Below are positions 4,171 through 60,840 of a stretch of DNA of 64,000 bases, piece by piece. Under the pieces are notes generated by a model. That model was not told the DNA's origin. It saw nothing but the letters and a program-made list of their open reading frames with translations, and searched no databases. The stretch's first letter is position 1, and each line of letters opens with the position of its first letter. The translations under genes and the position numbers were made by a program. This DNA comes from Acholoe squamosa (lineage: Eukaryota > Annelida > Polychaeta > Phyllodocida > Polynoidae), in contig OX439036.1 of assembly GCA_949317995.1 (NCBI GenBank), forward strand, positions 103,461,891 to 103,525,890, in the 5' to 3' direction.

Positions 4171-5140
4171 TCACTTAGAAGGCCAGTCCCCGTCTAAAGC
4201 ATCATACGCCATGTTAGTAACATGACGCATGAACTTCCTTTGCAGTTTCGGTGACATCTGCTCTACCTGTCTGACCAAAGAGTCGGCCCACAGTTGGGCA
4301 TCTGATGAAACAGGGTCTGAGGTAAGAGGCTGACTAGTGACTTTGGGTTTAGACAAAACTTCGACCATTTTTTCTAGGTTTTCGGATTTTTTTTCCATCA
4401 TCCTCAACACTGGGTCGTTCTTGGCCTTCTCGGCTTTTTTTTTGTCCAGCTCAGCCTCACGGACCTGACGATGTTCAGGTCCTTGCTTTGTGTACCAATT
4501 TGCAGACGGGTTTTCCACACCATAGTCAGTAGACCTGTCCTCCATGGAAGACTCACCCCCATGCATGGAGGTGTCCTTTCCTGTGTATGGTTGGTAGAGA
4601 GAAGCTCTCTGGGATGAGCCATCCTCAGTATAATGCAGGCCAGATTTCACTTCTGTTTTGCTGAACAACCTATTGTACCTATCCAAGGCTGTTTCCTGGC
4701 CCTTACCTTTGTTTGAGGTGTGATGCAGCCCTTTGCCTGCACCTTTCACAGTGTCTTTTGAGGTAGAAGCTAAAGGTGCTTTATCCTTGCAGCTGGATGA
4801 TAGTCCCGACTTAGTAGGCTGACTCTGTTTCTTCTGTGGATTGTGTGGACTCAGACGCTTAGATCGGTGTGCTGCAGCCTGCGTCCCAATGTGTTGGTTT
4901 CTGCTGTAATGTTTTTTACTAGGCTGGAGTGAGTGAGTAATGGATGTTTAATGCCATTTCGACAGCTAAGGTCATATTCATGGCGAGAAACCTATACCAA
5001 ACAAGTTTTGGATCTATGAGCAATTAAATATTTCAAAAACTATTGTGTAAATGGAACAAGTTGCTATTATTTCAGGCAGGATGAGGTGAAAGCTAAAATC
5101 ACAACAGTGCAAGATAAAATCACAAGTGTGCATGATAAAA

Positions 5141-8100
5141 TCAAAGAAGCCTGTACAGTCCAGCTGCTTTCAGGAAGTTGATGATAAGATCAGGTTTGAT
5201 GGTGGTAAAAAGTTCTTGTAGACCAGCTACATTGTAGAAATGTTGTCTGATAGGCGTAAAATCAACACAATCCATTAGGATGTGTTTGATGAAGAGAGAG
5301 AGAGAGTAATGGATGTTTAAAGCCATTTCGACAGCTAAGGTCATATTCATGGCGAGAAACCTATACCAAACAAGTTTTGGATCTATGAGCAATTAAATAT
5401 TTCAAAAACTATTGTGTAAATGGAACAAGTTGTTATTATTTCAGGCAGGATGAGGTGAAAGCTAAAATCACAACAGTGCAAGATAAAATCACAAGTGTGC
5501 ACGATAAAATTAAAGAAGCCTGTACAGTCCAGCTGCTTTCAGGAAGTTGATGATAAGATCAGGTTTGATGTTGGTAAAAAGTTCTTGTAGACCAGCTACA
5601 TTGTAGAAATGTTGTCTGATAGGCGTAAAATCAACACAATCCAATAGGATGTGTTTGATGGTCAATTTCGTGTCGCATGCCACACACTCAGGTGCTTCCT
5701 CTCCTTTCAGGAGGTAGGCATGAGTGAGTCGCGAATGACCGATGCGGCAACGAGTAAAGACTGTTTGGTCTCTACGGTTCTTGAGAGCAGGTCGACAGAC
5801 ACCAGACACTGTGGGACAAAATTCAAAGAGTTTCCATCCAGGGTTCTCTACCCATTGGTTTTGCCAAAGGTCAAGAATATACTTCTTGACAACTGGCCTA
5901 AATTCAGATGGCGGTAAAAGGCAAGGCTGTTCCTCAAAGTTAAGGCCATGTTTAGCCCTTTTATCAGCTTCTTCATTGCCTTTGATTCCCACATGACTTG
6001 GAAGCCAACAGAATCGGATGTCATATCCCAGTTCCTTGGATCTGATGAAACCTTTGATAATTTTCATTATCACAGGGTGATCCAAGTTGAGGTTCTGCAG
6101 ATCTTCTAGACAGGATTTTGAGTCATGTGTTTGATGGTCAATTTCGTGTCGCATGCCACACACTCAGGTGCTTCCTCTCCTTTCAGGAGGTAGGCATGAG
6201 TGAGTCGCGAATGACCGATGCGGCAACGAGTAAAGACTGTTTGGTCTCTACGGTTCTTGAGAGCAGGTCGACAGACACCAGAGACTGTGGGACAAAACTC
6301 AAAGAGTTTCCATCCAGGGTTCTCTACCCATTGGTTTTGCCAAAGGTCAAGAATAAACTTCTTGACAACTGGCCTAAATTCAGATGGCGGTAGAAGGCAA
6401 GGCTGTTCCTCAAAGTTAAGGCCATGTTTAGCCCTTTTATCAGCTTCTTCGTTGCCTTTGATTCCCACATGACTTGGAAGCCAACAGAATCAGATGTCAT
6501 ATCCCAGTTCCTTGGATCTGATGAAACCTTTGATAATTTTCATTATCACAGGGTGATCCAAGTTGAGGTTCTGCAGATCTTCTAGACAGGATTTTGAGTC
6601 GCTGAAGATGATGAATTTCTTCCCTGGCGCATCCTTCATGCATCTCATTGCAAGAAAGATGGCACAGGCTTCAGCAGAGAAAATGGAGCTGTGATTTGGA
6701 AGGCGAGATGCCAGTTTTCTGCCCCCACCTACCGCGGCAGCAGCCACTCTCTCTTCTTCTTTTGATCCGTCAGTGTAAAATGGTGCATGATGGGGAAGTT
6801 CATTCCTTATCTCAGAAAACCTCAATCTGTATTCTAGTGGGTTGGTGTCGGCTTTTCGTGATTTGGCTAGTCTGAAGTCGACCTCTAGCGGTACCAGTTT
6901 CCATGGAGGAATTTCTGGGAGGTGGGTTTGTGCCAATGATGTCAGGCTAACATTTAGTTGCCTCATATGTGTTTGAATTCTCAGACTGTATGGCCTGGCA
7001 GCTTTTGGTTTTGCCTCATAGAGCTTCTGGTTGTCTGGTTCAAATACACATGCATATGCTGGATTCGAAGGGTTCGTTCTCAAGCGCAGCGCAAACTGCA
7101 TCGACAATTTGAGACGTCTGTTTTCCAATGATGGTTCTCTGCCCTCAACATAAAGGCTAGGATATGGAGACGTTCGGAAGGCCCCGAGGGCTAGGCGAAT
7201 GCCTTGTCGATGAACTGGATCCAAGATGGCCACGTAGGACGGCCTAGCAGAGCCATACACCTGGGAACCATAGTCAAGCTTCGATCGAACCAGAGCTCTA
7301 TACAATTGGAGTAAAACCTTACTATCTGCACCCCAGTCAGTGTTTGATAACACTTTCAACAAATCAAGTGCTTTGGTGCACCTGATCTTTAGAGATTTCA
7401 AATGTGGAATAAATGAAAGTCGTTTATCAAACAGCACACCTAGAAACTTTGTCTCCTCTACAACCTTGATTGGATCTCCATCTAAGGTTAGATCTGGATC
7501 AGGATGCAGAGTGCGTTTCAGGCAAAAGTGCATTGCAACTGTTTTTGATTTAGAAAACTTAAAACCGTTTTCTACGGACCAGGCATGTACTTTGTTCAGG
7601 CACAGCTGCAGCTGCCTTTCGAATTAATGCATGTTCTTTGCTCTGTAGCATATCAGGAGGTCGTCAACATAGAGGCTACAGGACACATCTTTATTCACTG
7701 CATTAACAACACTGTTCATTTTGATACTGAACAAGGTAACAGATGATATGCTACCTTGGGGAACACCAAGTTCTTGCTCATGTTCATCAGATAGTGTTGA
7801 ATTCAATCTCACTCGGAAGTGTCTGTTGGATAAAAAATTTAATATGAATATGGGTAAACGCCCACGAAATCCCATATTGTATAGGTCTTTCATGATGCCA
7901 TGTTTCCACGTTGTGTCGTAGGCCTTTTCTAAATCAAAAAATACAGAAACAACATGTTCTTGTTTGATGAAGGCATCACGGATGAAATGTTCTAAACGAA
8001 TCAAATGATCAAGAGTGCTTCTTCCTCGTCTGAAACCGCTCTGATAGTCAGAAATCTGGTGTTTCGACTCGAGCAGCCAAACAAGTCTCTCGTTGATCAT

Positions 8101-9593
8101 TCTTTCCATGGTTTTACAGATGCAACTGGTGAGAGCTATAGGCCTATAATTTGTTGGTAGTGTATGGTCCTTACCAGGCTTGGGAATCGGTATAATGGTG
8201 GCTTCTTGCCAGGAAGGTGGAAGCTCACCACTTTCCCATATCCCATTGAAAAGAGATAGGAGTACCTTTAGCACTGGCTCAGGAAGATGTTTAAGAAATT
8301 CATAATGTACTTTATCTGGACCAACAGCAGTGTTGTGAGATTTCTTCAGAGACTTTTTAAGTTCCACCATGCTAAAAGGTTGGTTGTAGTCTTCTGAATT
8401 GTCAGATTGAAACTTGAGTCTCTTCCTTTCTTCTCTCACTTTTATTGGCACAAATTCTGAAAGGCAATTGTTTGAAGAAGAGTAATGTTCAAATGTTTCA
8501 GCCAGTTTCTTTGTTATCTCTGCTGGACTTGTCAAGAGCTCATCTCCGTCAAGGTGATGTTGGACCCTTGAACCGTCCCCCTTGCCTTTGATTTTACGGA
8601 TCATAGTCCAGACCTTGTTCATGGGGGTACGCGAGGTGACATTTGATACATACTTTTGCCATGAAGCCCGTTTAGCTTCCCGTATGATACGGCGACCTTG
8701 TGCCCGTTTGATCTTAAAGTTTGTAAGGTTTTCTGATGTTGGGTTCCTATTGAATTTTCGTAAGGCCTTTTTCCTCTCTCTGATGGCAACCTTACATTTG
8801 TCATCAAACCATGGATTTCTGGGATGTTTTGGAACTGTCGAGGTTTTAGGTACAGTCTCTTCTGCAATTGTTATAAGGGTTTCACTAAATTCCTCCATAT
8901 CCCTCTCAGTGAGACTGACATTGTCAAGCTTTTCCAGGCAGAGAGTCTGGAATTTGACCCAATCGGCCTTATCCAACTTCCAGCGAGGCTCTCGTTGGCC
9001 CACTAGAAGCTCCTCTACCTGTAAAAGGATAGGGAAATGATCACTCCCATGGAGGTGCAGGATGCAGGATGGAGGTAGGTATTCGAGCCATCATTAAAAA
9101 TACATAATGCTTTTTGTGTCACAAAAGATTCTATTGTTTTTCCTTTTTGGTCAGAGGAGTCACCTCCCCAGAGGGGGTTGTGACCATTAAGGTCTCCCAA
9201 GATTATGTAGGGAGACGGAAGCTGGTCTGCCAGATCAACCAGCTCCTGCAAGTTGAGAACAGAGTTAGGAGGGATATAAAGTGAGCATATTGTCATAGTT
9301 TTATGAAGAGTAATTCTTACAGCTGCTGCTTGAAAATTTGTGTTTAATTCAAGTAGGCTATGGACAACGTCTTGACGGACTAAGATGGAAGAGCCACCTG
9401 AAGCTCGATCACCATCCGGTCCACAAGTATTGTACATTTCAAAGTTTTTAAAAGAGATAACGTCATCTTCTTTAATATAGGTTTCTTGTAAACAAAAAGC
9501 TAGAGCATTGAAATTTTGGTTTAAAATCTTTAATTCATTAAAATTGGCTCGAAAACCTCGACAGTTCCATTGAACTACCGCTCCACCAGCCAT
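5141..9593 (-). pseudogene. L-A1 ORF2 (endonuclease-RT-RNase H), broken
   Basis: It starts MAGGAVVQWNCRGFRANF, the first motif of an AP-type endonuclease. The endonuclease is shortened by a ~90 bp deletion near 9055, giving a frameshift. The RT core is visible (FDLEKAYDTTW, GVPQGS, SLYVDD), then RNase H (FYTDGS, SAEA, SDSKS, and H.GI.GNEEAD). Further frame breaks lie near 7624 (premature TAA) and 6470-6490, and the nested insertion cuts the RNase H C-terminal part. The product cannot be active. Confidence 0.9.
5292..6124 (-). mobile_element. 5'-truncated L-A copy nested in L-A1
   Basis: It duplicates the L-A 3' end (RNase H C-terminal part plus 3' UTR) and is bounded by the 12-bp TSD ATGTGTTTGATG at 5280-5291 and 6125-6136. 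The outer element continues exactly across the insertion. Its own tail is an AG-rich GAGAGA run rather than clean GAGT. Confidence 0.9.
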
Positions 9594-10939
9594 TATTTCG
9601 GGTATTGGATCGGTGAGTGACTTCTGACCTTCACGTTCGGTGATGGAGAACGTCGAACGTAAAGGTCATCCTCCATGTCGATGTCCAGGGAGTTAAATCT
9701 ATTGCCTTGTTGGCAGATGTCTCTCCCTGATTTTGGCAGCCTCCCGCTGCCACTGGCACCTTGAGCTTTGGATTTTTTTGCTTTTGGTTTGTCTACTTTT
9801 GTGCTTTGACTGTTTGGACCAGACGCCACACCACCTGCCGAGGCATTCTTGCCAGGCTTAGGTGGTACTAGTGGCTTTTTGCCCTGGGCAGTGTTACTTT
9901 TAGCAGAACCGCTTTGAGAAGAGCCAGTTTGAGCAGAACTGCTCTGAGATGAGTGATTCTCTGAGGGACCCTTTTGAGCAGAACTACTTTGAGCAGCACT
10001 GCCCGAAGACACTTTCGGCTTTATCAAACAGTCATAACTGACAACAGTCTGGCACTCGATGGAGGCAGTCACTGGTTTCAGGGAGTGAGAATACAATTTG
10101 CCCTTTTGAGGAAGTTGAGGCATAGAAGCCAAAACAAGTTTCCTTGCCTCCGGAAAACTGATGTTGTTTAGGACTTTCAGTTCCTGTATTCTCTTCTCCC
10201 GACACCATACTTCACAGCTCCTGGATGAGGCCATGTGGTCACCCTGGCAATTGGCACATTTTGCCGGGAACTGACAGCCTTCGCTGTCATGACCTTTCTG
10301 GCCACACTTAAAGCAGACTGGTTCTGATCGGCAGAAATTCTTGCCATGACCGAACCTCTGGCAGTTGAAACAGCGGAGTGGATTGGGGATATACACTTTC
10401 ACTTCTACGCTCAAGTAGCCGATTTTGATTCTCTGTGGGGGCTTAGGTGTGTTGAATGTCAAGATATAGGTGTTGCTGCTTTGTTTGCTATCTTTTCTAA
10501 TTGGGATTCTCTTGACATCAGTAACACCTTCTTGTCTGAGCTCCCTACAGATTTCATCCTCATCGATACCCTCAAGATCTCTTGTCCGGATTACTCCTTT
10601 GCATGAGTTCAGGGACCGATGAGGAGAGGCCTTCATTTCTCTGTCTGCCAGTTTGTCTGCTTTAAGCAGATTACGGGATTGTGCTCTTGTGGCACACTCG
10701 ACCATAATCTGTCCAGAGCGAAGTTTTTTAATGTCTGTCACCTGGCCTGCTATCCCCAGAATGCCTTTGTTAATGGCAAAAGGAGACAGCTTGCTCAGAG
10801 GTGACAGTCCAGTGGACTCCAGGATAATAAATCTCGGCCAGCTGCTGGTTGTTGTCAAACTTTCAGAATCCGAGTCAGAATCCGAGTTGAGAGGACGTTT
10901 CATTGAGGTCGTTGTTGTGGGGTTTTGTGTAGTAGCCAT
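9593..10939 (-). CDS. L-A1 ORF1, gag-like nucleic-acid-binding protein
   Basis: 448 residues from the ATG of MATTQNPTTTT (10939). The frame is open further upstream, but only to a TTG; an alternative ATG lies at 10960. Three zinc knuckles follow each other: CFNCQRFGHGKNFC, CFKCGQKGHDSEGC and a CANC..DH...SRSC variant. Before them is a conserved N-terminal region (GILGIAG.V..IKKLRSGQI), and after them a Ser/Ala/Gln-rich repeat (SSAQ) and a Lys-rich tail. ORF1 proteins of I-type LINEs bind their RNA and form the particle used for target-primed reverse transcription. The stop overlaps the ORF2 start as TAATG. Confidence 0.85.
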   Translation of the reverse strand: MATTQNPTTTTSMKRPLNSDSDSDSESLTTTSSWPRFIILESTGLSPLSKLSPFAINKGILGIAGQVTDIKKLRSGQIMVECATRAQSRNLLKADKLADREMKASPHRSLNSCKGVIRTRDLEGIDEDEICRELRQEGVTDVKRIPIRKDSKQSSNTYILTFNTPKPPQRIKIGYLSVEVKVYIPNPLRCFNCQRFGHGKNFCRSEPVCFKCGQKGHDSEGCQFPAKCANCQGDHMASSRSCEVWCREKRIQELKVLNNISFPEARKLVLASMPQLPQKGKLYSHSLKPVTASIECQTVVSYDCLIKPKVSSGSAAQSSSAQKGPSENHSSQSSSAQTGSSQSGSAKSNTAQGKKPLVPPKPGKNASAGGVASGPNSQSTKVDKPKAKKSKAQGASGSGRLPKSGRDICQQGNRFNSLDIDMEDDLYVRRSPSPNVKVRSHSPIQYPK

Positions 10940-13189
10940 GTTATAGTAGATATAATTCATCACCCTCTTTCCCCGGCCACCTTTGTTGGACCACCATTTG
11001 GTATGTGAATTCTCACACAGGGACTTCAAGAATGATATACTCGCATAATATAAATATTATACGATTGACCCAGCCCCCGCCTTCAAGGATGGATGATTGG
11101 TTGATCAAAGTTTGTGTCTCAGCGTACAATGAAGTACTTTAAAGACTTGAAAACAATAATGATGAACATGGTTTGAGGAAAAGAAAAAACTAAAAGAGAT
11201 GATGGAATGAGAAGGTGAATCATTTCATCCTTGGGCTCAGCAGGACCAGCCGATTGATTGAGACGGGCTATCCCAACCACCCGTCTAGTTGAAGTTAGAG
11301 CCAAAGCCACCATATTGCCCTAGGGACTCAAGTGACCAGGACCTCCTCCTCCCTTTCACGGGCTGCGACTCACGGCAAACAAGCCGCCCTCTTACTGAGG
11401 GAAATTGTTTATTTTTTTTTGGTGGCACCTGTACATTTTATTTTTCTCTCCTCTTGGTACATGTACCTTTTCAGTTCTGTTTTGGGGAACCTATTTAGCG
11501 ACTAGACTCCACAGTCGGTGTAGGTAGAGAGATAGAAAGAATAGAGAAGACCCATTTGTGAAGGGCTAGGGAAGCCCATTGAATGAGAATGAAGGTCAGA
11601 GGATAAGAGAGGACAGAAAAGGGAGACCAGACCCCTTTTAAAAATGGGTTGGGGAGACCCGTTACTAGGCTGGAACACAGGACTACCCTCAACCTCACCC
11701 TCCTCGTCTTCCTCTTCCTTACCCTCACCCTCAACATCTCCTTCACCTTCTTCCTCATCTTGATCCAACTCTTGAGCTAGTTCTTCTCGTTCCTGCTTCA
11801 CCTTCTGGCGCTTAGGCTGGAATTGTATCTGAGACGTCTCCAAGTTCTCGTCAGTCTGAAAAAAAAAGGAAATTTATGCCCTGTCTGTCTAATATTAGTT
11901 ACCATTACATCTTAACCCGTCATGAGCCTAAAAAAAACCTATACAGTTACAAATCAAGACTAAAAACAAGGGACCTATTTGTTTTCACCAGTAATGCAGA
12001 CATAATTATTATTTTCATGTTATATATATACAAGAACTTGATTGAGAATTTTTTTTGGGAAAAATAGACTTACACAGAAGGGGGCGCACATTAAAGTCTC
12101 ATCTAAAAGTTATAAACTAAAGCACACTCTTACCTCTAAGTCTATAGGCTGGGAAGCTGTTCCCTTTGACTTAGGGGTAGATGTGAAGGTGGCCTTCCCG
12201 GGGCTGCGTCCAGAGTAGGTGTTGTAGGTTTCGTTCTGGTTCAAGTAAGTTCTTAAGAACCCGACCAACCTGCATATCTCCTTCTGTCGAGGGGTTCTAC
12301 CTACAGCAGCAGAACCACTTTTACCAGTTTTCAGTATCTTGGAATACATGTTTCAGAGACTCCTCATCCTGATTTCGATTTTCTTTGCTGGAAAAAAAAG
12401 CAATATCTTGCAGCAAGATGTTTGTATTAAATGAAACAATTTTTTTTTTTTTTTTTAATTCAAATACTTCAGTTATGAAACTGTTAACCAAATACTTAAG
12501 GTCCGGTTTTTTATTAAATAGCCTGTGTTAAGAATTGAGTAACAACAAATATAGGATTAAAAGAATGATAAAGTAATAACTTACGTGGAAGAATAACTGC
12601 CATTTTGGCGTAGATCAAATCCTTCACAGATGCCACCCGATAGCCATTAGCCCTCATATCATAGAGAGCTCTCTCCTGTTCCCAGAGCCTGCAGAGCGTC
12701 TCCTCACGGGTAGGGTCTTCTGTCCACCAAGTTTCCATATCCTTGTCTTCAAATTTCAAGTCAAATTTGGATGGAGTCATTTTCAGCATAGTGGATTGCA
12801 GGTTGGCAAGGTCCTCTGCGTCTTGGTCTACCTCATCACCGTCTTCGTCTTCTCCCTCTTGATCCTGGTCTAGAACTGGATGTTTTGTGTAATCACCATG
12901 ACCTTTGAAGAGAAAAAAAAGAAATTCAATGAAACACACATAGACTTTGCTTAACCTTTTCTTAAAAGCCAACAGAAATAACTAACAGGTAGGTTGGGAA
13001 ACAACAAATTTCTATTTTGCATAATGTCTTTCATGGATAGCTACTGACATCAATATTAGGGTCCAGACTCAAACTTATAACTCACCTTCCATAGTACCTT
13101 GAGATTGGTTCAAGACATCTTCCATCTCTTCCTTGGTTGGATTGTCCTCGCTGTCGACTTCAAGCTCGTCCTCCTTGGACTTAGCAGCC

Positions 13190-16079
13190 GTCAGTGTAAA
13201 ATGGTGCATGATGGGTAAGTTCATTCCTTATCTCAGAAAACCTCAATCTGTATTCTAGTGGGTTGGTGTCAGCTTTTCGTGATTTGGCTAGTCTGAAGTC
13301 GACCTCTAGCAGTACCAGTTTCCATGGAGTTTCTGGGAGGTGGGTTTGTGCCAATGATGTCAGGCTAACATTTAGTTGCCTCATATGTGTTTGAATTCTC
13401 AGACCGTATGGCCTGGCAGCTTTTGGTTTTGCCTCATAGAGCTTCTGGTTGTCTGGTTCAAATACACATGCATATGCTGGATTCGAAGGGTTCGTTCTCA
13501 AGCGCATCGCAAACTGCATCGACAATTTGAGACGTCTGTTTTCCAATGATGGTTCTCTGCCCTCAACATAAAGGCTAGGATATGGAGACGTTCGGAAGGC
13601 CCCGAGGGCTAGGCGAATGCCTTGTCGATAAACTGGATCCAAGATGGCTACGTAGGACGGCCTAGCAGAGCCATACACCTGGGAACCATAGTCAAGCTTC
13701 GATCGAACCAGAGCTCTATACAATTGGAGTAAAACCTTACTATCTTCACCCCAGTCAGTGTTTGATAACACTTTCAACAAATCAAGTGCTTTGGTGCACC
13801 TGATCTTTAGAGATTTCAAATGTGGAATAAATGAAAGTCGTTTATCAAACAGCACACCTAGGAACTTTGTCTCCTCTACAACCTTGATCGGATCTCCATC
13901 CAAGGTTAGATCTGGATCAGGATGCAGAGTGCGTTTCAGGCAAAAGTGCATTGCAACTGTTTTTGATTTAGAAAACTTAAAACCGTTTTCTACGGACCAG
14001 GCATGTACTTTGTTCAGGCACAGCTGCAGCTGCCTTTCGATTGAATGCATGTTCTTTGCTCTGTAGCATATCAGGAGGTCGTCAACATAGAGGCTACAGG
14101 ACACATCTTTATTCACTGCATTAACAACACTGTTTATTTTGATACTGAACAAGGTAACAGATAATATGCTACCTTGGGGAACACCAAGTTCTTGCTCATG
14201 TTCATCAGATAGTGTTGAATTCAATCTCACTCGGAAGTGTCTGTTGGATAAAAAATTTAATATGAATATGGGTAAACGCCTACGAAATCCCATATTGTAT
14301 AGGTCTTTCATGATGCCATGTTTCCACGTTGTGTCGTAGGCCTTTTCTAAATCAAAAAATACAGAAACAACATGTTCTTGTTTGATGAAGGCATCACGGA
14401 TGAAATGTTCTAAACGAATCAAATGATCAAGAGTGCTTCTTCCTCGTCTGAAACCACTCTGATAGTCAGAAATCTGGTGTTTCGACTCGAGCAGCCAAAC
14501 AAGTCTCTCGTTGATCATTCTTTCCATGGTTTTACAGATGCAACTGGTGAGAGCTATAGGCCTATAATTTGTTGGTAGTGTATGGTCCTTACCAGGCTTG
14601 GGAATCGGTATAATGGTGGCTTCTTGCCAGGAAGGTGGAAGCTCACCACTTTCCCATATCCCATTGAAAAGAGATAGGAGTACCTTTAGCACTGGCTCAG
14701 GAAGATGTTTAAGAAATTCATAATGTACTTTATCTGGACCAACAGCAGTGTTGTGAGATTTCTTCAGAGACTTTTTAAGTTCCACCATGCTAAAAGGTTG
14801 GTTGTAGTCTTCTGAATTGTCAGATTGAAACTTGAATCTCTTCCTTTCTTCTCTCACTTTTATTGGCACAAATTCTGAAAGGCAATTGTTTGAAGAAGAG
14901 TAATGTTCAAATGTTTCAGCCAGTTTCTTTGTTATCTCTGCTGGACTTGTCAAGAGCTCATCTCCGTCAAGGTGATGTTGGACCCTTGAACCATCCCCCT
15001 TGCCTTTGATTTTACGGATCATAGTCCAGACCTTGTTCATGGGGGTACGTGAGGTGACATTTGATACATACTTTTGCCATGAAGCCCGTTTAGCTTCCCG
15101 ATACTCGACCTTGTGCCCGTTTGATCTTAAAGTTTGTAAGGTTTTCTGATGTTAGGTTCCTATTGAATTTTCGTAAGGCCTTTTTCCTCTCTCTGATGGC
15201 AACCTTACATTTGTCATCAAACCATGGATTTCTGGGATGTTTTGGAACTGTCGAGGTTTTAGGTACAGTCTCTTCTGCAATTGTTATAAGACTTTCACTA
15301 AATTCCTCCATATCCCTCTCAGTGAGACTGACATTGTCGAGCTTTTCCAGGCAGAGAGTCTGGAATTTGACCCAATCAGCCTTATCCAACTCCCAGCGAG
15401 GCTCTCGTTGGCCCACTAGAAGCTCCTCCACCTGTAAAAGGATAGGGAAATGATCACTCCCATGGAGGTCATCAAGAACTCTCCACTTAAAGTCTAGTGA
15501 CAACTGAGGTTCTACTATTGTTAGGTCAATTGCAGTGTAAGTACCGTGTGCAGGATGGAGGTAGGTATTCGAGCCATCATTAAAAATACATAATGCTTTT
15601 TGTGTCACAAAAGATTCTATTGTTTTTCCTTTTTGGTCAGAGGAGTCACCTCCCCAGAGGGGGTTGTGACCATTAAGGTCTCCCAAGATTATGTAGGGAG
15701 ACGGAAGCTGGTCTGCCAGATCAACCAGCTCCTGCAAGTTGAGAACAGAGTTAGGATGGATATAAAGTGAGCATATTGTCATAGTTTTATGAAGAGTAAT
15801 TCTTACAGCTGCTGCTTGAAAATTTGTGTTTAATTCAAGTAGGCTATGGACAACGTCTTGACGGACTAAGATGGAAGAGCCACCTGAAGCTCGATCACCA
15901 TCCGGTCCACAAGTATTGTACATTTCAAAGTTTTTAAAAGAGATAACGTCATCTTCTTTAATATAGGTTTCTTGTAAACAAAAAGCTAGAGCATTGAAAT
16001 TTTGGTTTAAAATCTTTAATTCATTAAAATTGGCTCGAAAACCTCGACAGTTCCATTGAACTACCGCTCCACCAGCCAT
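13190..16079 (-). pseudogene. L-A2 ORF2, endonuclease intact, RT complete, RNase H cut
   Basis: The endonuclease half (16079 to 15090) is open and contains the region deleted in L-A1, including the HGSDHFPI motif that normally closes an AP-endonuclease. A small deletion near 15095 shifts the frame. The RT half (15040 to 13190) is open with FDLEKAYDTTW and SLYVDD. The element ends abruptly after the first RNase H Asp motif. Confidence 0.88.
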
Positions 16080-34125: not shown

Positions 34126-34139
34126 AGATTGGTTGGTGA

Positions 34140-41243: not shown

Positions 41244-41253
41244 GCGGGAAGTG

Positions 41254-47247: not shown

Positions 47248-47632
47248 AATCAATGTTTATGATTATTTAGACTAGAATTTTTAATCAAGATTTACAATTC
47301 ATCAATGCATGATTCCCCTGGCTAGTGATATGTAATTTTCCTCCAGCTGCTGCCATGCGTTCAATGTGCACGAAGGAGTTCAGCCGCTTTGACACTTTGG
47401 GTGCTGCAGAGGAAGCTTATGGGGTTGAGTGAGTAATGGATGTTTAATGCCATTTCGACAGCTAAGGTCATATTCATGGCGAGAAACCTATACAAAGCAA
47501 GTTTTGGATCTATGAGCAATTAAATATTTCAAAAACTATTGTGTAAATGGAACAAGTTGTTATTATTTCAGGCAGGATGAGGTGAAAGCTAAAATCACAA
47601 CAGTGCAAGATAAAATAGTGTGCACGATAAAA

Positions 47633-50600: not shown

Positions 50601-51311
50601 GACCCAATTGGCCTTATCCAACTTCCAGCGAGGCTCTCGTTGGCCCACTAGAAGCTCCTCTACCTGTAAAAGGATAGGGAAATGATCACTCCCATGGAGG
50701 TCATCAAGAACTCTCCACTTAAAGTCCAGTAACAACTGAGGTTCTACTATTGTTAGGTCAATTGCAGTGTAAGTACCGTGTGCAGGATGGAGGTAGGTAT
50801 TCGAGCCATCATTAAAAATACATAATGCTTTTTGTGTCACAAAAGATTCTATTGTTTTTCCTTTTTGGTCAGAGGAGTCACCTCCCCAGAGGGGGTTGTG
50901 ACCATTAAGGTCTCCCAAGATTATGTAGGGAGACGGAAGCTGGTCTGCCAGATCAACCAGCTCCTGCAAGTTGAGAACAGAGTTAGAAGGGATATAAAGT
51001 GAGCATATTGTCATAGTTTTATGAAAAGTAATTCTTACAGCTGCTGCTTGAAAATTTGTGTTTAATTCAAGTAGGCTATGGACAACATCTTGACGGACTA
51101 AGATGGAAGAGCCACCTGAAGCTCGATCACCATCCGGTCCACAAGTATTGTACATTTCAAAGTTTTTAAAAGAGATAACGTCATCTTTTTTAATATAGGT
51201 TTCTTGTAAACAAAAAGCTAGAGCATTGAAATTTTGGTTTAAAATCTTTAATTCATTAAAATTGGCTCGAAAACCTCGACAGTTCCATTGAACTACCGCT
51301 CCACCAGCCAT
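47633..51311 (-). pseudogene. L-A3 ORF2, near-intact, one 2-bp frameshift
   Basis: Would be about 1,226 residues. Order: AP-endonuclease (QWNCRGFRAN; ILGDLNGHN; the HGSDHFPI motif), linker, RT (PGKDHTLPTNYRPIALTSCI, FDLEKAYDTTW, SLYVDDLLI), RNase H (FYTDGSKEE, SAEACAI, SDSKSCL, H.GIKGNEEAD) and a C-terminal CVACDTKLTIKHILLDC. Compared with L-A1 and L-A2, two bases are lost in TTTCAGACTTTT near 49990, splitting the frame into 450- and 762-residue parts. Confidence 0.92.
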
Positions 51312-52657
51312 TATTTCGGGTGGTGGATCGGTAAGTGACTTCTGACCTTCACGTTCGGTGATGGGGAACGTCGAACGTAAAGGTCATCCTCCATGTCGAT
51401 GTCCAGGGAGTTAAATCTATTGCCTTGTTGGCAGATATCTCTCCCTGATTTTGGCAGCCTCCCGCTGCCACTGGCACCTTGAGCTTTGGATTTTTTTGCT
51501 TTTGGTTTGTCTACTTTTGTGCTTTGACTGTTTGGACCAGACGCCACACCACCAGCCGAGGCATTCTTGCCAGGCTTAGGTGGTACTAGTGGCTTTTTGC
51601 CCTGGGCAGTGTTACTTTTAGCAGAACCGCTTTGAGAAGAGCCAGTTTGAGCAGAACTGCTCTGAGATGAGTGATTCTCTGAGGAATTCTTTTGAGCAGA
51701 ACTACTTTGAGCAGCACTGCCCGAAGACACTTTCGGCTTTATCAAACAGTCATAACTGACAACAGTCTGGCACTCGATGGAGGCAGTCACTGGTCTCAGG
51801 GAGTGAGAATACAATTTGCCCTTTTGAGGAAGTTGAGGCATAGAAGCCAAAACAAGTTTCCTTGCTTCCGGAAAACTGATGTTGTTTAGGACTTTCAGTT
51901 CCTGTATTCTCTTCTCCCGACACCATACTTCACAGCTCCTGGATGAGGCCATGTGGTCACCCTGGCAATTGGCACATTTTGCCGGCAACTGACAGCCTTC
52001 GCTGTCATGACCTTTCTGGCCACACTTAAAGCAGACTGGTTCTGATCGGCAGAAATTCTTGCCATGACCGAACCTCTGGCAGTTGAAACAGCGGAGTGGA
52101 TTGGGGATATACACTTTCACTTCTACGCTCAAGTAGCCGATTTTGATTCTCTGTGGGGGCTTAGGTGTGTTGAATGTCAAGATATAGGTGTTGCTGCTTT
52201 GTTTGCTATCTTTTCTAATTGGGATTCTCTTGACATCAGTAACACCTTCTTGTCTGAGCTCCCTACAGATTTCAACCTCATCGATACCCTCAAGATCTCT
52301 TGTCCGGATTACTCCTTTGCATGAGTTTAGGGACCGATGAGGAGAGGCCTTCATTTCTTTGTCTGCCAGTTTGTCTGCTTTAAGCAGATTACGGGATTGT
52401 GCTCTTGTGGCACACTCGACCATAATCTGTCCAGAGCGAAGTTTTTTAATGTCTGTCACCTGGCCTGCTATCCCCAGAATGCCTTTGTTAATGGCAAAAG
52501 GAGACAGCTTGCTCAGAGGTGACAGTCCAGTGGACTCCAGGATAATAAATCTCGGCCAGCTGCTGGTTGTTGTCAAACTTTCAGAATCCGAGTCAGAATC
52601 CGAGTTGAGAGGACGTTTCATTGAGGTCGTTGTTGTGGGGTTTTGTGTAGTAGCCAT
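51311..52657 (-). CDS. L-A3 ORF1, gag-like, intact
   Basis: 448 residues from MATTQNPTTTT to the stop shared with ORF2 (TAATG). Three CCHC-type knuckles near residues 200-255, an upstream region beginning LSPLSKLSPFAINKGILGIA, and a C-terminal SSAQ/SGSA repeat with a Lys-rich block. It is nearly identical to the L-A1 protein, indicating recent activity of the family. Confidence 0.9.
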   Translation of the reverse strand: MATTQNPTTTTSMKRPLNSDSDSDSESLTTTSSWPRFIILESTGLSPLSKLSPFAINKGILGIAGQVTDIKKLRSGQIMVECATRAQSRNLLKADKLADKEMKASPHRSLNSCKGVIRTRDLEGIDEVEICRELRQEGVTDVKRIPIRKDSKQSSNTYILTFNTPKPPQRIKIGYLSVEVKVYIPNPLRCFNCQRFGHGKNFCRSEPVCFKCGQKGHDSEGCQLPAKCANCQGDHMASSRSCEVWCREKRIQELKVLNNISFPEARKLVLASMPQLPQKGKLYSHSLRPVTASIECQTVVSYDCLIKPKVSSGSAAQSSSAQKNSSENHSSQSSSAQTGSSQSGSAKSNTAQGKKPLVPPKPGKNASAGGVASGPNSQSTKVDKPKAKKSKAQGASGSGRLPKSGRDICQQGNRFNSLDIDMEDDLYVRRSPSPNVKVRSHLPIHHPK

Positions 52658-53541
52658 GTTATAGTAGATATAATTCATCACCCTCTTTCCCCGGCCACCT
52701 TTGTTGGACCACCATTTGGTATGTGAATTCTCACACAGGGACTTCAAGAATGATATACTCGCATAATATAAATATTATACGATTGACCCAGCCCCCGCCT
52801 TCAAGGATGGATGATTGGTTGATCAAAATTTGTGTCTCAGCGTACATTGAAGTACTTTAAAGACTTGAAAACAATAATGATGAACATGGTTTGAGGAAAA
52901 GAAAAAAACTAAAAGAGATGATGGAATGAGAAGGTGAATCATTTCATCCTTGGGCTCAGCAGGACCAGCCGATTGATTGAGACGGGCCATCCCAACCACC
53001 CGTCTAGTTTAAGTTAGAGCCAAAGCCACCATATTGCCCTAGGGACTCAAGTGACCAGGACCTCCTCCTCCCTTTCACGGGCTGCGACTCACGGCAAACA
53101 AGCCGCCCTCTTACTGAGGGAAATTGTTTTTTGTTTTTTTTTGGTGGCACCTGTACATTTTATTTTTCTCTCCTCTTGGTACATGTACCTTTTCAGTTCT
53201 GTTTTGGGGGAACCTATTTAGCGACTAGACTCCACAGTCGGTGTAGGTAGAGAGATAGAAAGAATAGAGAAGACCCATTTGTGAAGGGCTAGGGAAGCCC
53301 ATTGAATGAGAATGAAGGTCAGAGGATAAGAGAGGACAGAAAAGGGAGACCAGACCCCTTTTAAAAATGGGTTGGGGAGACCCGTTATGGGGTTGACTAT
53401 GAGGGTTTGTCTCCAAAGTCTGCATCAGCTCGCAAGTCCTCCACAGAAACCTCCCAATCCTCCACATCAAAATCCACAACTGTTGAAGAGACACCTATGG
53501 CTGCTTTGCTTAAGCTAGAATTTACTGACCTCTCTGTTTAG

Positions 53542-54318: not shown

Positions 54319-54434
54319 ATTGATTGATTGATTTGTGTTTTACAGCACTTTAGCGGCACTAAGTGGCTATCCCGTGCTTCACAAGTTGATAATCTAACAG
54401 AGGAATGTGTCAGTGCCCGCGCATATGTGCACCA
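54319..54434 (-). mobile_element. S1 retroposon, 5'-truncated
   Basis: ATTG tail, hairpin and core to GTGCACCAC; the head is missing. A possible small exon surrounds it (acceptor TGTAG at 54291, donor near 54475), not firmly supported. Confidence 0.85.
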
Positions 54435-55597
54435 CCCCCACGAGTCAGAGTACTCACCGTTGCCTGTTGTGCAGGTTAATAGGAATCAGAAATTTTTGTG
54501 CATTGTGATGTTAGCATTCTGATTCAAATCATAACCCCAAAATACTTAGTTGCATGGTGTTTCAAAGCATCCCACCAATTAATCAATTACTTGTGAATGT
54601 TTACCTAGTTTCAAGTTAGTTTCTACCACGATGACTTGTTTGCCACATTATCTAGTTTTAATGTTTGTCTAGCATAAGTCCCCTTGCCTCAATTTATAGT
54701 TTTACTGTTTGCCTAGTATCAGGAGATAACCCATCAAAGTACAGTATCTCATTGTATATACAGAGTTCACATTTCCAAATTCTTTTACTTCAAAGAGATT
54801 TTGGTAAATCTTCAAATTCCAGTCAGTTCATGGTCCCAAGTCTATCATACTTTTGCATCGTGTCTATCCCTGCCACAATCTTAATTTTCTTAGCATCTAT
54901 TTCAGTACAAACAGGGTAAGATTCTTATTTCCTATGTTTTATATTAAGATTGTGCATGCTAGCAATAACCCGACTATCAACATATTAAACAAGTGGTGTC
55001 TATATTCGATTAAGATATACATATTTTACGCATTTCAAATTTACAGCAACCTTGTCTATTAGCCACTGATCTAATGTGTTATTACTGCAATACCGATTTT
55101 TAAATTCATGTGAAAAATAACCAATAGTTAACATAAATGTCTCAGAAAAAGGCCCTTGGAGAGTTCCACACACTCAGAACACGGGGCAACACAAGAAGCA
55201 TCCATCTGTGGCAGATCATTCACAATGCTAAGGACGTTGTCAGGAAGATGAGCTGGAAGGTACTATCCAGAATGCTTACACCGGGTGAAGGTATGCATTT
55301 GATTTGAGAACTTTTCCAACCTGGCAATAGGGGATATGGATGTATGGGGCCTATCCCTCTCTATGGGAGGGGGCTGTAAAATTTGCATCGACCAGAGGAA
55401 GCAATGAAATGTTATTGTATGTCTGTTTTCCATTTGATACATTCCTATTATATTTGAGAATTTATAACAATTTGTTCCTTTACAGTTAACATTGATACAG
55501 GGGTCATCACAGCGGAGATGGCTAATGATGTAGTGCCACAAGAGGTTCTTCAACGTGTAGCGGTCCTCCTTGAAGAAGGGAACACATTCGAGGATGT

Positions 55598-55755
55598 TGA
55601 TTGATTGATTGATTTGTGTTTTACAGCACTTTAGTGGCACTAAGTGGCTATCCCGTGCTTCACAGGTTGATAATTTAACAGAGGAATGTGTCAGTGCCCG
55701 CGCATATGTGCACCACACACATCCTGAGTGGATAGGAAAGAGGAGATATAGACCC
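55598..55755 (-). mobile_element. S1 retroposon in exon 2 of the six-exon gene
   Basis: Tail, hairpin and core present; head truncated at TATAGACCC. The exon frame resumes at TTGTGGTGGGG (EDV|VVGLL) with only about 3 bp (TTG) duplicated. Confidence 0.85.
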
Positions 55756-56173
55756 TTGTGGTGGGGCTGCTGCGTGGCAACCTTGTGCCTGCTGGCTACA
55801 TTGCCCATCCGTTCTGGGAAGGCTATGCTGAGACCAACATTGATATGTTGCGAAGCATCATGGCCACCTTTCACTTCAGAAAGACTATAAGGGACTTTGA
55901 GCTTGTCGGGGTAGACTTCCACACATATCTGTACAACCCTGAGGTGGATGTCACAACAGGTTAGTATTTTCTTTTGCCTTTATGAATAACTCAGTATGGT
56001 TGCTGTTGTACATCAAAGTTTGAAAAACTTAGTTTTCGATTGATAGATATAATTGATTTCTGAGCAGTATCTGTGGAAAAACTAATGTAACCTCATCTGT
56101 TGTCTATGCTTGCACTATGACCTCTGGCTACTTTTCAGGTACACTCATTCATGAAACCACAACCACTTGATGA

Positions 56174-56352
56174 GTGAGTGAGTAATAGGTGTTTAACGCC
56201 ATTTCGACAGCTAAGGTCATATTCATGGCGAGAACGACATTACACAATTTCACAGAGAAATGTGCCGGTGCCCGCGCATATGTGCACCACACACACCCGA
56301 GGGGATAGGAAAGAGGAGAAATAGACCCTTTTAAGTGGGCTAGGGAAGCCCG
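56174..56352 (-). mobile_element. S2 retroposon in exon 3, TSD 13 bp
   Basis: GAGT tail (reads GTGAGTGAGT on the gene strand), full body and head. TSD AACCACTTGATGA lies at 56161-56173 and 56353-56365. Confidence 0.93.
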
Positions 56353-56565
56353 AACCACTTGATGAAGCGGATTGCAACTTCAGTTCGGGAAGGAATCAGG
56401 ACCTAAGTCTCAGAACTTTGACAATGCTGTGCAAGATGCAAACAGTGGTAGGTGACCAATAGTTGTCAAATGTATTCTGTCAGTAGTTTTTCTGCAGGTT
56501 TTTACAGTAATGTAAGATTAGAAAATAGATTTGTGTGAGTCCTGTAAACATATGTATTCTCCCTC

Positions 56566-56822: not shown

Positions 56823-57985
56823 AAGCAACTCACTTTCTTGGATTCAGGTCTGACACATGCTGCCCTGGTTGGACTTAGGAAGCAATCTGTCCCAGATGCC
56901 GAACGACTGCTCTCCTTCAAAATGGCTCAGTACATGGTAGCAAACAATCATGTGAATGAAGCCACCTTTATCCATCATGTCGCCCGCTGGCATGAGGCAT
57001 CAGATGGACGGGGTCTCAGTCAACTCGCGCGAAGCAAGGCAAATTATGAGTTCCTTAATTTCATCTTGGATGAATGGATGCCATGGCGTCGAGAGACTTA
57101 TGACTTTGCTACTATAGATGTCAACAGGTGAGTCTTGTTTTCTCATACTGTTTATCAATACCCTCGTATAGTTTACTATAGATGGGGATATTCTCACCCA
57201 TCTAGCATGGAAAGGCAAATCTTTGCATACATGTATGGCTAATCTTATCCTGTAGATCCAAAGGTACATGTCATTCGATACAGCTTATTAATCAGACAAT
57301 TATTAAGAATTTACATCATATTAGCCACTTCTTTCTTTCATCTTCAGGCCAACAACCAACATCAGGGGTCTGACCTATCAGACTCTCATTGAAGTGACCT
57401 GCAACATAGAGAGCCAAGAGCTCCGGAGGCGAGCTAACGCAGAACGAGGATATGCTGAGCACCCATGTGCGGCTACCATCGATGACAATGAGTGTCTTTT
57501 TAGCCTCACGTGTCGTCAACTTGGGAAAACTTTCACCCTTAAGGACTTTGCACCAGCTTCTCCTAAGATAGTCCGGTAAGTATTTTATATATTGTTGTCT
57601 TTGTGCAATTTCTAACTGTTGTGTCTTCAGCACTTTCATATTAGTTAAATGATTGTCAATGAATATTAGAACATGCCAAAATGTTATTTACAACCTTCTC
57701 ACACTAATGAGATAATGTAATGCAGATATCATCAGCATATAAGCCACACCTAGTATATAAAGCTGCACCCTGACTTTGGAAAAGTACTATAAGCCACATC
57801 TGAGGCCTGAAAGGTCCGTGTTTCCAACCTCAGCCTATGTATTCAAACAGTTAAATGCTTTTCCATTCATGGCTTACCAAAGAATAATTAGAGCCTTAAT
57901 AGCGCTTTTCCATTTTACTATTACGTTCTGGATGAGCGCTACCACGAGAACGAGCCCGACTTCAATGAAGGGTCAGGTCACATGA

Positions 57986-58540
57986 TTTTTGTTTGTTTGT
58001 TTAGTTTTACGTCCGGGGGCCATAAAGGAACTCAGACATTCAAGGTTTCTCGGACATTAAGTCCTTTCTTTTCTGTTTGGACAGGTATTTATATGCTGCT
58101 TGCCCGACACAGCAGTGACCGAATCTATGAATGATCGAATCTATGAGATGAATGACCGCATCTATGAGGAGGGGTGAGGGGGAAAACCGCTTCCGGGGCT
58201 TCATTCCCCTACTCTTTTCGAAGGATAGCAAGTGTTCTTTTATTTGCCTGGTCCCATAGACAGGGCCAGACAAACCACGGCCTTTGATCACTCAGACGTG
58301 GTTCACTGAGGGAGAATCCCATGGCAAAAGGCAAGCATGTACGCCTGGGCCCGCGCATATGGACACCAGCTGCCCACATGCTCACCCCAAGACACAAGAA
58401 ACCCCAAGTTTGTCGCCTTTTACGAATCTGGTATGCCCACTGGTAGAATGGAAGGAGGAAAATTCCTCCTTCGTGGACTCCCAATGAAGTTATTCTGCTC
58501 CTCCATGCCCTCACATGAAGGTCCCCACTCCACAGGGGGA
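57986..58540 (-). mobile_element. S4 retroposon in exon 6, TSD 11 bp
   Basis: Full length, very similar to the copy at 32624. TSD AGGTCACATGA lies at 57975-57985 and 58541-58551. Confidence 0.93.
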
Positions 58541-58584
58541 AGGTCACATGAAGCGTGATAGAGACCATCAGTACCAGCAAGACA

Positions 58585-58767
58585 ATTGATTGATTGATTT
58601 GTGTTTTACAGCACTTTAGCGGCACTAAGTGGCTATCCCGTGCTTCACAGGTTGATAATTTAACAGAGGAATGTGTCAGTGCCCGCGCATATGTGCACCA
58701 CACACATCCTGAGGGGATAGGAAAGAGGAGATATAGACCCTTTTAAGTGGGCTAGGGAAGCCCATCT
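58585..58767 (-). mobile_element. S1 retroposon in exon 6, TSD 9 bp
   Basis: Full length. TSD AGCAAGACA lies at 58576-58584 and 58768-58776. Confidence 0.92.
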
Positions 58768-58970
58768 AGCAAGACAACAGAGTAGAGAGGCTCCACAGGG
58801 AGAAGCGGAATAGCAGGGAAGACAGTAGCATCATTGTTGCTGGCCGATGCTTTCTACCAGTCCGAGGTGGCGTAGGACTATGCCAATGTCTCTTCAATGA
58901 GGAAGTTGGTCTCCTCCCAGTACCTGATGATCTTGCACCACTCCAAGCATTGCCAATTGACATGGAGTAA

Positions 58971-59541: not shown

Positions 59542-60840
59542 TCATATTGATGCTGACTGTATTTCAGGGAGTCCATTATGGACAGCCTTTAGCCAGGACG
59601 CCCCTATATAGCCTATTTGTCCTGGTGGGGTGATACTGGGCACAGTTATTAATATAGCATTTTTGTCTCTTGGGTTATCAGGCTCTTTTTTAAATTGAGT
59701 GAGTAATAGTGAGTAATAGGTGTTTAACGCCATTTCGACAGCTAAGGTCATATTCATGGCGAGAACTGCATTACTATTTCACAGAGAAATGTGTTGGTGC
59801 CCGCGCATATGTGCACCACACACATCCGAGGGGATAGAAAAGAGGAGAAATAGACCCCTTTAAGTGGGCTAGGGAGAGTGAGTGAGTAATAGATGTTTAA
59901 CGCCATTTCGACAGCTAAGGTCATATTCATGGCGAGAATGACATTACACAATTTCACAGAGGAATGTGTCAGTGCCCCCGCATATGTGCACCACACAAAG
60001 TGGGCTAGGGAAGCCGGTTTTTTAAATTGAACTTCAGCATGGGGACCTGCTTCCCTCGCAAGGCCCAAAGCTTTCTGGAAAGTCTTATTGTATGTAGATC
60101 CCCTAACTTTTAGCTTAAGAATATGGACCTCACTTGGGTCATCGCATGAGGAGTTTTGAGTGTCTTCAGCCGCTATTGGATGCAGACAGGAAGCAGCACT
60201 GCTTGTGCTAACATCTACCACAAGCATAGATTTCAAAAGTCTAGTGCAGTTACAAACACTGTCAGCACTTATGTGAGGCATGCCATGCTGAACTACTCTA
60301 GCTGTTGCTCGATAAGGATTTAGGGGAGCTGGAAGGCCAGGTTCTACTGACAAGTCCATAATCAATGTAGCTAGGCAAGGTTCGGTCTGTCCATCCTCAT
60401 CATTGTCATCAAACTGGAATAAACAAAGTTTATTTATCTGTTATGGTGAATTCATTTACAATTTACCATTTATCAAGACAGTGCAGTAAATAAAGAAATG
60501 GATTGCTCTAGAAATACCCGTAGTGAACATTTTAGCCATTCACACTATGAAGAAATGATTAATAAAACTATTTTTATCAAGGAAAGTATTACTTGACTTT
60601 ACATTATTCTTAGTCACCCAAAAGTCTGCTGAATTATTCACCCTGATCATACATGGGGTCGGAAGATGTTCAAGCTTTCTGGATTGTGAATTATTCATCA
60701 GGATACCTCTCAGATTGTCGTTCTTCATAGGACACATGTGCCTCTCTGACACATAAAGCAAGACATGTGCAACCACTTACACTGTAGTGGACCCACTGAG
60801 CTGACAAACATGTGAGGTACAATAGTTCACCATCTTGCAT
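59542..60840 (-). CDS. Small HIRAN-domain protein (199 residues), exon 2 split by S2 elements
   Basis: Exon 1 is 60840-60781 (ATG; MQDGELLYLTCLSAQWVHYS; donor GTAAGT) and exon 2 is 60413-59542 (acceptor TTATTCCAG; TGA at 59544-59542). Removing 59699-60017 and one TSD copy leaves 600 coding bases. The C-terminal ~90 residues resemble a HIRAN domain: EVHILKLKVRGS, then VQFKKEPDNPRDKNAI and GQIGYIGASWLKAV, matching the family's R/KEPxNPxDxNAI...IGYI signature. HIRAN domains bind DNA ends and occur in HLTF-type remodelers, phage proteins and transposons. Here the domain stands almost alone after an acidic N-terminal segment (FDDNDEDGQTE). It is tail-to-tail with the six-exon gene. Confidence 0.66.
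59699..59875 (-). mobile_element. S2 retroposon in HIRAN exon 2
   Basis: GAGT tail with an extra GTGAGTAATA duplication at the left, full body, head ends at GGCTAGGGA. With the neighbouring copy it is bounded by the TSD TTTTTTAAATTGA at 59686-59698 and 60018-60030. Confidence 0.9.
59876..60017 (-). mobile_element. Second S2 copy, adjacent, internally deleted
   Basis: Tail, hairpin and core intact, then a jump from ACCACACAA to AGTGGGCTAGGG. It probably inserted into the end of the neighbouring S2, or arose by tandem duplication. Confidence 0.85.

Follow-up and report, generated by a model that had tools for sequence, protein, structure and literature searches.

Retroposons in the window

The window, the whole 64-kb stretch of DNA that was analysed, contained 31 minus-strand retroposon insertions (three L-A, two L-B, two L-C, three L-D, seven S1, seven S2, five S3 and two S4), the plus-strand LINE L-E, satellites, and gene-like frames on both strands (read by eye) (Table 1). 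No Pfam domain was named in any of nine gene-like pieces from the window, and Rfam at the gathering threshold and ARAGORN gave no match.

Table 1. Retroposons of the window, with positions counted from its first base
Element	Position	Strand	TSD	Remarks
L-A1	4916..11674	-	TTACTAGGCTGGA	I-type LINE with tandem-duplicated 3' pieces
L-A2	13172..19416	-		Without 3' end; broken by a non-retroposon insert (~16882-17935) and S2a (18487-18664)
L-D fragment	19418..20034	-		5' UTR; S5 of the sequence-only reading
L-E	19967..29130	+		LINE of another RT lineage; outer limits approximate; interrupted by five minus insertions (seven if those nested in them are counted)
L-B1	21531..24700	-	TTGATGATGTT	1053-aa RT and RNase H frame
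S1a	24913..25208	-	Not found	5'-truncated; in L-E
S3a	25365..25869	-		In L-E; S4a (25449-25752) nested inside
L-C1	25949..28166	-	Not found	In L-E; L-B2 (27346-27925, TSD not found) nested inside
S1b	28428..29050	-	GTACAGAGGAGT	
S3b	31521..31730	-	TATAATTCTTA	
S1c	32613..33193	-	TTCCAGGAAGA	Within exon-like frame (by eye)
S4b	33840..34139	-	AGATTGGTTGGTGA	
S1d	35526..36100	-		Inside 179-bp satellite
S2b	36740..36917	-		Inside 40-bp satellite
S2c	37499..37681	-		Inside 40-bp satellite
L-D	37909..39031	-		ORF1 and 5' UTR; contains the second S5 of the sequence-only reading
L-D fragment	39033..39552	-		ORF2
S1e	40697..41246	-		Inside 31-bp satellite
L-C2	41718..45020	-		RT and RNase H; inside 31-bp satellite
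S2d	45242..45806	-	CCATTTAAATACA	S1f (45385-45741) nested inside
L-A3	47416..53397	-		Near full length; in exon-like frame; missing from C16 site copy
S2e	54319..54436	-		5'-truncated; missing from C16 site copy
S2f	55598..55757	-	Not found	5'-truncated
S3c	56161..56365	-	AACCACTTGATGA	
S1g	57975..58551	-	AGGTCACATGA	
S2g	58576..58777	-	AGCAAGACAA	
S3d and S3e	59686..60030	-	TTTTTTAAATTGA	Head to tail; one common TSD

Pieces of L-A carried the domains Exo_endo_phos, Exo_endo_phos_2, RVT_1 and RNase_H, the combination of APE endonuclease, RT and RNase H in ORF2 that characterizes the I superfamily. Pieces of L-B and L-C carried RVT_1 and RNase_H, with no endonuclease match in the pieces scanned, and their RT proteins were 44-46% identical to that of L-A. 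Of the 120 relatives listed, those with a name included Patella caerulea, a spider and two MAG records of bivalve symbionts. Nimb and Ingi, described as named I-superfamily clades of molluscs (PMC10294476), resemble L-A in having endonuclease, RT and RNase H. The window differed from them in its short elements, which had no detectable tRNA gene and in which the heads of S2-S4 resembled a LINE 5' end. The short elements share 3' ends with I-type LINEs; the 3' ends of S1/L-C, S2 and L-A/S3 showed no or only short similarity to one another. Viral contigs held no relative in scans with A-, C-, S2- and B-type motifs and an RT alignment, and the scan of prokaryote genomes gave three short contigs, too small for a strand test.

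The S5 elements, taken as a separate short family in the sequence-only reading, proved to be the 5' UTR of L-D. L-E was confirmed on the plus strand; it had been called old, which is not clear, as its frame stays open through the insertion sites of L-B1 and S3a. A dimer of S3d inside one TSD may account for S3e.

Strand of the insertions

A search of the window with ten nhmmer models (L-A, L-B, L-C, two L-D pieces and S1-S5; E <= 10) gave 186 minus segments and no plus segment. The same search of the reverse-complemented window gave 186 plus segments, and the reversed-sequence control gave two chance matches. The segments outnumber the insertions because the models overlap. Thus the earlier observation that all identified tailed retroposons (then counted as 32) were minus held, and no unlisted opposite-strand copy was found. 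The window contained 25 tetranucleotide runs; 22 were of the four tail types, all 22 in the sense of minus elements. Self-comparison of the window revealed no inverted pair of dispersed retroposons, the inverted pairs coming from the 31-bp satellite, from an AT run and from small palindromes at about 47.1 and 56.7 kb.

At 50:50, the probability of a single strand was 4e-6 (n = 19), 5e-7 (n = 22) or 9e-10 (n = 31), and the 95% lower bound of the per-insertion bias was 0.85 (n = 19) or 0.91 (n = 31). When the substrates of the 31 insertions were grouped by hand, 12 were gene-like DNA, five L-E, five satellites and four another minus retroposon, with complex or lost flanks at five. Base skew outside the elements was small, and its sign flipped along the window.

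Target sites and junctions

TSDs of 10-16 bp were found at 15 of the 31 insertions (13 exact, two with one mismatch). Four further insertions, all in satellites, had matching flanks, which are less certain since the flanks are repeats (those of S2b and S1e were read by eye); for the other 12 no TSD was found. A TSD with the tail at one end, as in non-LTR elements and SINEs inserted by target-primed reverse transcription (TPRT), was therefore present at 15 clear sites and four in satellites. In 15 of 15 clear cases the tail followed the plus-strand TSD copy, and elements of three LINE types (L-A, L-B and L-C) shared one strand; both support the earlier suggestion that one DNA strand was nicked. 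The nick-site motif was symmetric between strands (PWM, 0.496 on plus), and a target motif was rejected as the cause of the bias.

A 451-base piece of host DNA occurred at full length only in the window and at 2.49 Mb of contig C16, where the copy of the site had neither L-A3 nor S2e and represents an empty site for both insertions. The piece was absent at full length from the other islands described below, so the one host piece searched gave no support for an origin of the islands by segmental duplication from a single ancestor.

Extent of the minus-only run

The I-type segments formed a run from -80.2 kb to at least +124.0 kb (~205 kb), in which 105 of 105 were minus. With 11 exact A-type motifs, the run exceeded the 1.2 expected at the genome mean, though a region of contig C1 had 10 in 204 kb. 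Inside the run, four LINEs of other RT lineages, identified by BLAST and HMM comparison only, were all plus. Therefore the island does not force one strand on every LINE, and the plus LINEs require either a lineage-specific rule or an earlier time of insertion. No tandem array longer than ~2 kb was found in the 324 kb examined.

Strand balance across the genome

The A-type 3'-end motif was balanced genome-wide (4549:4421), as was the C-type motif (1222:1136). Among A-type neighbours less than 15 kb apart, 11 of 22 were concordant (first 100 places listed; C1 0-11.5 Mb), which contradicts a replication-fork rule for A-type elements on that part of C1. C-type neighbours at this distance were concordant in 10 of 12 cases, a weak local strand effect, and A-C cross pairs within 50 kb in seven of 19. 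A dense A-type region at C1 8.08-8.25 Mb was not one-stranded (8 vs 2). Outside the island, short elements of these families occur in both orientations; at C1 596 kb (L008), a minus and a plus S3 were separated by 135 bp.

The L-A mark was found at 42 places on 13 contigs; 32 of these lay in seven compact clusters, each on a different contig, with summed spans between marks of ~0.82 Mb of 1481 Mb. Each cluster was one-stranded, a result equalled by three of 200,000 label shuffles. C13 and C16 had further single L-A loci, and other contigs had one L-A mark or none; the lone mark at 61.73 Mb of C13 was on the strand opposite to the cluster at 63.6-63.9 Mb.

The strand test in the other islands used L-A, L-D and L-B marks. 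All 12 exact matches of the L-D mark lay inside L-A clusters and on the cluster strand; seven were separated by 3.17-3.22 kb from an L-A mark, and each such pair probably tags a single element. Among the 100 of 177 L-B matches listed, 28 were no more than 130 kb away from an L-A mark, and 27 of these were on its strand; this cut was chosen after the matches had been seen, and 150 kb gave 27 of 29. A 77-kb tandem duplication on C10 held 13 of these 28 marks, and duplication may have occurred inside other islands too. An opposite-strand L-B mark lay at 76.22 Mb of C10, and on C6 the strand changed along the contig, from plus for an L-B mark at 9.92 Mb to minus for a run spanning 9.94-10.08 Mb and back to plus for one spanning 10.43-10.47 Mb.

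The strand bias looks like a property of particular islands and not a general rule, because the genome-wide A-type counts were balanced, the C1 neighbours were unordered and the L-A clusters were one-stranded.

Origin of the strand bias

The explanation that we favour, with slightly less than even confidence, is that the islands attract I-type LINEs and short elements and that a one-way process through each island fixes the strand at insertion. The window is part of one of several compact retroposon islands, in which I-type LINEs and short elements with common 3' ends would insert by TPRT, the first nick within an island falling on the same DNA strand. L-A and L-D marks are mostly found in islands, L-B and C-type elements also elsewhere. 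The crowding of L-A marks points to targeting rather than retention. The islands may be chromatin of a special kind, for which centromere cores and piRNA-source loci are the candidates. The one-way process could be germline transcription, the non-template plus strand being exposed here, or replication, with the plus strand as lagging template and forks moving toward higher coordinates. In human L1, too, a process that runs one way along the DNA is reported to determine the strand choice of TPRT, and transcription-coupled repair is reported to skew L1 orientation in HeLa inserts (39 antisense vs 17 sense; PMC5717806); there it is a preference, whereas here the strand was exceptionless for the I-type elements of the run and confined to islands.

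A possible but less probable explanation is a unistrand piRNA cluster of the flamenco type, in which insertion is random and selection keeps silencing copies antisense to the cluster transcript. The run has the form of such a cluster, a TE-dense locus with one TE strand, with the other-lineage LINEs on plus; flamenco-type clusters of Drosophila are described as long, TE-dense and biased in particular families, and the bias here was likewise limited to I-type LINEs and their short elements. piRNAs are reported in molluscs (PMC6128900), which bears on this case if the genome is that of a mollusc. However, the Drosophila clusters hold Gypsy elements, not LINEs and short elements, and the case here had no exception among 31 insertions and L-A concentrated in islands. 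Random insertion with retention should leave very many L-A copies elsewhere, exceptionless selection on ~21 short elements is hard to accept given the lower bounds above, and gene-like frames occurred on both strands.

It is improbable that the islands are LINE centromeres like those of Zepp and that their same-strand arrays arose by fixed-orientation insertion into earlier copies. Zepp and ZeppL clusters, one per chromosome, are reported to mark centromeres in green algae (PMC8226300, PMC10030371), and both in these algae (Coccomyxa, Chlamydomonas) and here a LINE family lies mostly in compact clusters on separate chromosomes; ZeppL clusters in Chlamydomonas are given as ~252-480 kb. Here, in contrast, the elements are RNase H-bearing I-type LINEs of an animal together with several families of short elements, most insertions were in unrelated DNA and only four in another minus retroposon, C13 and C16 had more than one L-A locus, the 324 kb examined had no tandem array above ~2 kb, and the islands are candidate centromeres only.

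Loss of, or selection against, inverted pairs, which would leave same-strand copies and had been proposed earlier, is very unlikely. A slight deficit is reported for adjacent human Alu elements (inverted:direct ratio 0.955 after cluster correction; PMC3215922), but this effect is far too small. The inverted S3 pair at 135 bp and the inverted satellites of the window persist, and S1/L-C, S2 and L-A/S3 share a strand despite their dissimilar 3' ends.

The earlier suggestion of a genome-wide fork rule orienting all elements along chromosomes fares slightly worse still: L1 is reported to favour the lagging-strand template (PMC10830416, PMC12503042) and the C-type neighbours were mostly concordant, but the genome-wide counts, the A-type neighbours and the A-C pairs were not ordered. 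Mis-assembly, also suggested before, or chance can hardly explain the bias, given the TSDs, the L-E frame open over two sites, the C16 empty sites and seven separate clusters.

LINE insertion strand bias has been known so far as a statistical preference. Natural loci on several chromosomes at which it is nearly total would make it possible to study how the nicked strand is chosen and whether such islands serve as centromeres or as sources of piRNAs. Should the strand follow the direction of germline transcription or of forks, old insertions would report these directions in any species with an assembled genome. As a wider and rather doubtful proposal, animal chromosomes may carry Zepp-like LINE islands in which the TPRT-nicked strand is fixed island by island, the strand of the elements then preserving, as a fossil would, the single direction of replication or transcription through the island, and other RT lineages reading the polarity reversed.

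The substitution asymmetry among copies was mixed (non-CpG G>A 19 vs C>T 8 in L-A; 2 vs 10 in S1) and could reflect the source elements.

Strand of the retroposons in and around the window

The minus strand of the window carried four LINE families (L-A to L-D) and four short-element families (S1 to S4). Searches with nhmmer using ten models (E<=10) found 186 segments on the minus strand and 0 on the plus strand; the reverse-complemented window gave 186 plus segments and the reversed window gave 2 chance matches. Four tail types accounted for 22 of the 25 tetranucleotide runs, and all 22 had the same direction. No inverted dispersed retroposon pair was detected by self-blastn of the window. These results upheld the claim of the sequence-only reading that all identified tailed retroposons lie on one strand; segments grouped by hand gave 31 insertions, compared with 32 in that reading. 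Its separate short element S5 proved to be the 5' UTR of L-D.

The window occupies positions 103461891-103525890 of contig C2. Flanks of 200 kb on the left and 60 kb on the right were read, and the window lay within a longer minus-only run (Table). Left of the run, short elements occurred on both strands and tail-like runs in both senses. On the right, no element was found in 2.5-kb samples at +135, +160, +190, and +230 kb (four of five samples), and the fifth contained a minus S1 near +281 kb; the run thus reached at least +124.0 kb on the right. All four LINEs of other RT lineages inside the run were on the plus strand, a fragment at +108 kb being counted as part of the LINE near +94 kb.

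Table. Features of the window, the surrounding run (kb; negative, left of the window), and the contigs of the assembly
Feature	Location	Strand	Observation
Gene-like frames (by eye)	window 4171-4947, 11690-13190	-	
Gene-like frames (by eye)	window 30360-33500, 46670-58970, 61425-62000	+	last one presumably resembles a NADAR-domain gene
31-bp satellite	window 40620-41722, 45030-45170, 60971-61172	both	16-20 kb apart
L-A1, 3' side	window 4927-6600		duplicated in tandem (369 and 476 bp)
Insert in L-A2	window about 16882-17965		inverted ends (CAGTCGGCCCTTGGTTCCTCGA...), TA on both flanks (by eye)
One-strand run	-80.2 to +124.0 kb	-	22 + 41 + 42 segments (window's 41 at E 1e-5, flanks' at E 1e-3), not independent insertions
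S2, left of run	-85 kb	+	
S2, left of run	-106 kb	-	
S3, left of run	-124 kb	+	
S3, left of run	-183 kb	-	
Other-lineage LINEs, inside run	near -46, -38.6, +20, +94 kb	+	
Other-lineage LINE, outside run	-85 kb	+	
Other-lineage LINE, outside run	-151 kb	-	
LINE, inside run	L028:1377-4877	+	uninterrupted 1167-aa frame
L-A mark clusters	C2, C3, C4, C8, C10, C12, C13		5, 6, 7, 4, 2, 3, 5 places
L-B/L-A marks, C6	9.92 Mb	+	single mark
L-B/L-A marks, C6	9.94-10.08 Mb	-	run
L-B/L-A marks, C6	10.43-10.47 Mb	+	run
Tandem duplication	C10 75.95-76.11 Mb		77 kb
Densest A-type stretch of C1 sample	8.08-8.25 Mb	8 vs 2	10 motifs in 204 kb
L043, paralogue of gene-like stretch	C16:2488150-2490060 (2.49 Mb)		94.6-97.4% identical

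Islands across the contigs

The L-A mark (a 35-mer of L-A ORF2, <=3 mismatches) was found in 42 places, 32 in seven clusters and 10 single. All seven clusters were one-stranded, that on C13 lying on the opposite contig strand; a single mark at C13 61.7 Mb had the strand opposite to the C13 cluster. The L-D mark (a 36-mer of the 5' end, exact) occurred in 12 places, all in the C2, C3, C4, C10, and C13 clusters and on the cluster strand. In seven of the 12 cases an L-A mark lay 3.17-3.22 kb away, so that both marks probably belong to the same element.

The L-B mark was dispersed on both strands (108:69; 177 in all). Among the first 100 of the 177, 28 lay no more than 130 kb from an L-A mark, and 27 of these shared its strand, at six loci (those on C6 and C9 contained a single L-A mark each); a 150-kb cut gave 27/29. 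The lone exception under the 130-kb cut was on C6, where a minus run was followed by a plus run, and C6 9.92-10.47 Mb possibly holds a polarity switch. The L-A, L-B, and L-D marks of C10 recurred at 77006-77008-base spacings in a tandem duplication; therefore, they were not all independent.

Genome-wide strand balance

Across the 1.48-Gb assembly (63 contigs), the 3'-end motif of L-A-like elements (A-type) had 4549 forward and 4421 reverse matches, and that of L-C-like elements (C-type) had 1222 and 1136. The first 100 places of each on C1 were then compared. For A-type (to 11.5 Mb), neighbours <15 kb apart were concordant in 11/22 cases and 47 strand runs were observed against 51 expected, so A-type elements showed no general same-strand domains there; a weak local structure was seen for C-type (10/12 concordant neighbours <15 kb apart, P 0.02; to 52 Mb). 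A-C cross pairs within 50 kb were concordant in 7/19 cases. The run around the window contained 11 A-type motifs on a single strand, compared with 8:2 in the densest stretch of the C1 sample.

Target-site duplications and nick sites

Duplications were sought in the window only. Target-site duplications of 10-16 bp flanked 15 insertions, the two copies being identical in 13 cases and differing by one mismatch in 2. The matching flanks of another four insertions, in satellites, were less certain (S2b and S1e read by eye), and no duplication was found for 12 of the 31. The tail followed the left-hand + strand copy in all 15 clear cases, so that, under the standard TPRT scheme, the + strand would have been nicked first and would have primed first-strand synthesis. 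This agreed with the nicking of one DNA strand suggested previously. The 3' base of the primer was A in 10/15. L043 lacked L-A3 and S2e; its sequence was uninterrupted where L-A3 sits in the window, and the two flanks overlapped there by 12 bases, as predicted by a target-site duplication.

Origin of the polarity

Polarity seems to be a property of the island, because motifs balanced genome-wide were one-stranded here. For L-A, the strong concentration of its mark in islands makes targeting of insertions more probable than random insertion followed by retention. Given this concentration and the island-bound polarity, we favour a strand choice that would be made at the time of insertion, within special chromatin of the islands. 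The chief fact left unexplained is the plus strand of the other-lineage LINEs. Target sequence does not account for the strand bias: the nick-site position weight matrix was near-symmetric (+ strand sum 0.496 in the whole window, 0.485 outside elements).

Precedents for strand choice are the need of L1 ORF2p for single-stranded DNA and its preference for the lagging strand (PMC10830416, PMC12503042), and the orientation bias coupled to transcription (PMC5717806). The known arrangements that come closest to the islands are the centromeric LINE clusters of Zepp/ZeppL and flamenco-like unistrand piRNA clusters. The top matches listed among open-licence PMC papers contained no report of an island system of this kind.

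Relationships of the elements and minor features

RVT_1 and RNase_H domains were found in L-A, L-B, and L-C, and endonuclease domains also in L-A; over the RT region, L-B and L-C were 44-46% identical to L-A. Named RT relatives among the matches listed included Patella caerulea, two bivalve-symbiont MAG records, and a spider. S3 and S4 shared the 3' end of L-A, and S1 that of L-C; S2 and L-B had a short stretch in common. At their heads, S2-S4 were similar to the L-A/L-D 5' end. No tRNA gene was detected in the short elements. Copies differed pairwise by 1.2-1.5% (L-A), 1.2% (L-B), 1.9% (L-C), and 1.6% (L-D 5' end), and by 0.7% (S4), 0.6-4.3% (S2), 0.2-12.9% (S1), and 5.3-13.8% (S3).

For L-E, the plus-strand LINE in the window, three stretches were joined: those spanning the sites of L-B1 and S3a were open, and the one extending into the likely 3' region had at least 8 stops in each frame. 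The 3'-side duplications of L-A1 perhaps arose from template jumping. The insert in L-A2 resembles a mariner/pogo-type DNA transposon. Pfam gave no match in the scanned part of the NADAR-like frame. Several gene-like frames in the window appeared, by eye, to be interrupted by retroposons within exon-like sequence. Named relatives of a 456-aa frame at the left edge of the window included brittle star and lancelet.
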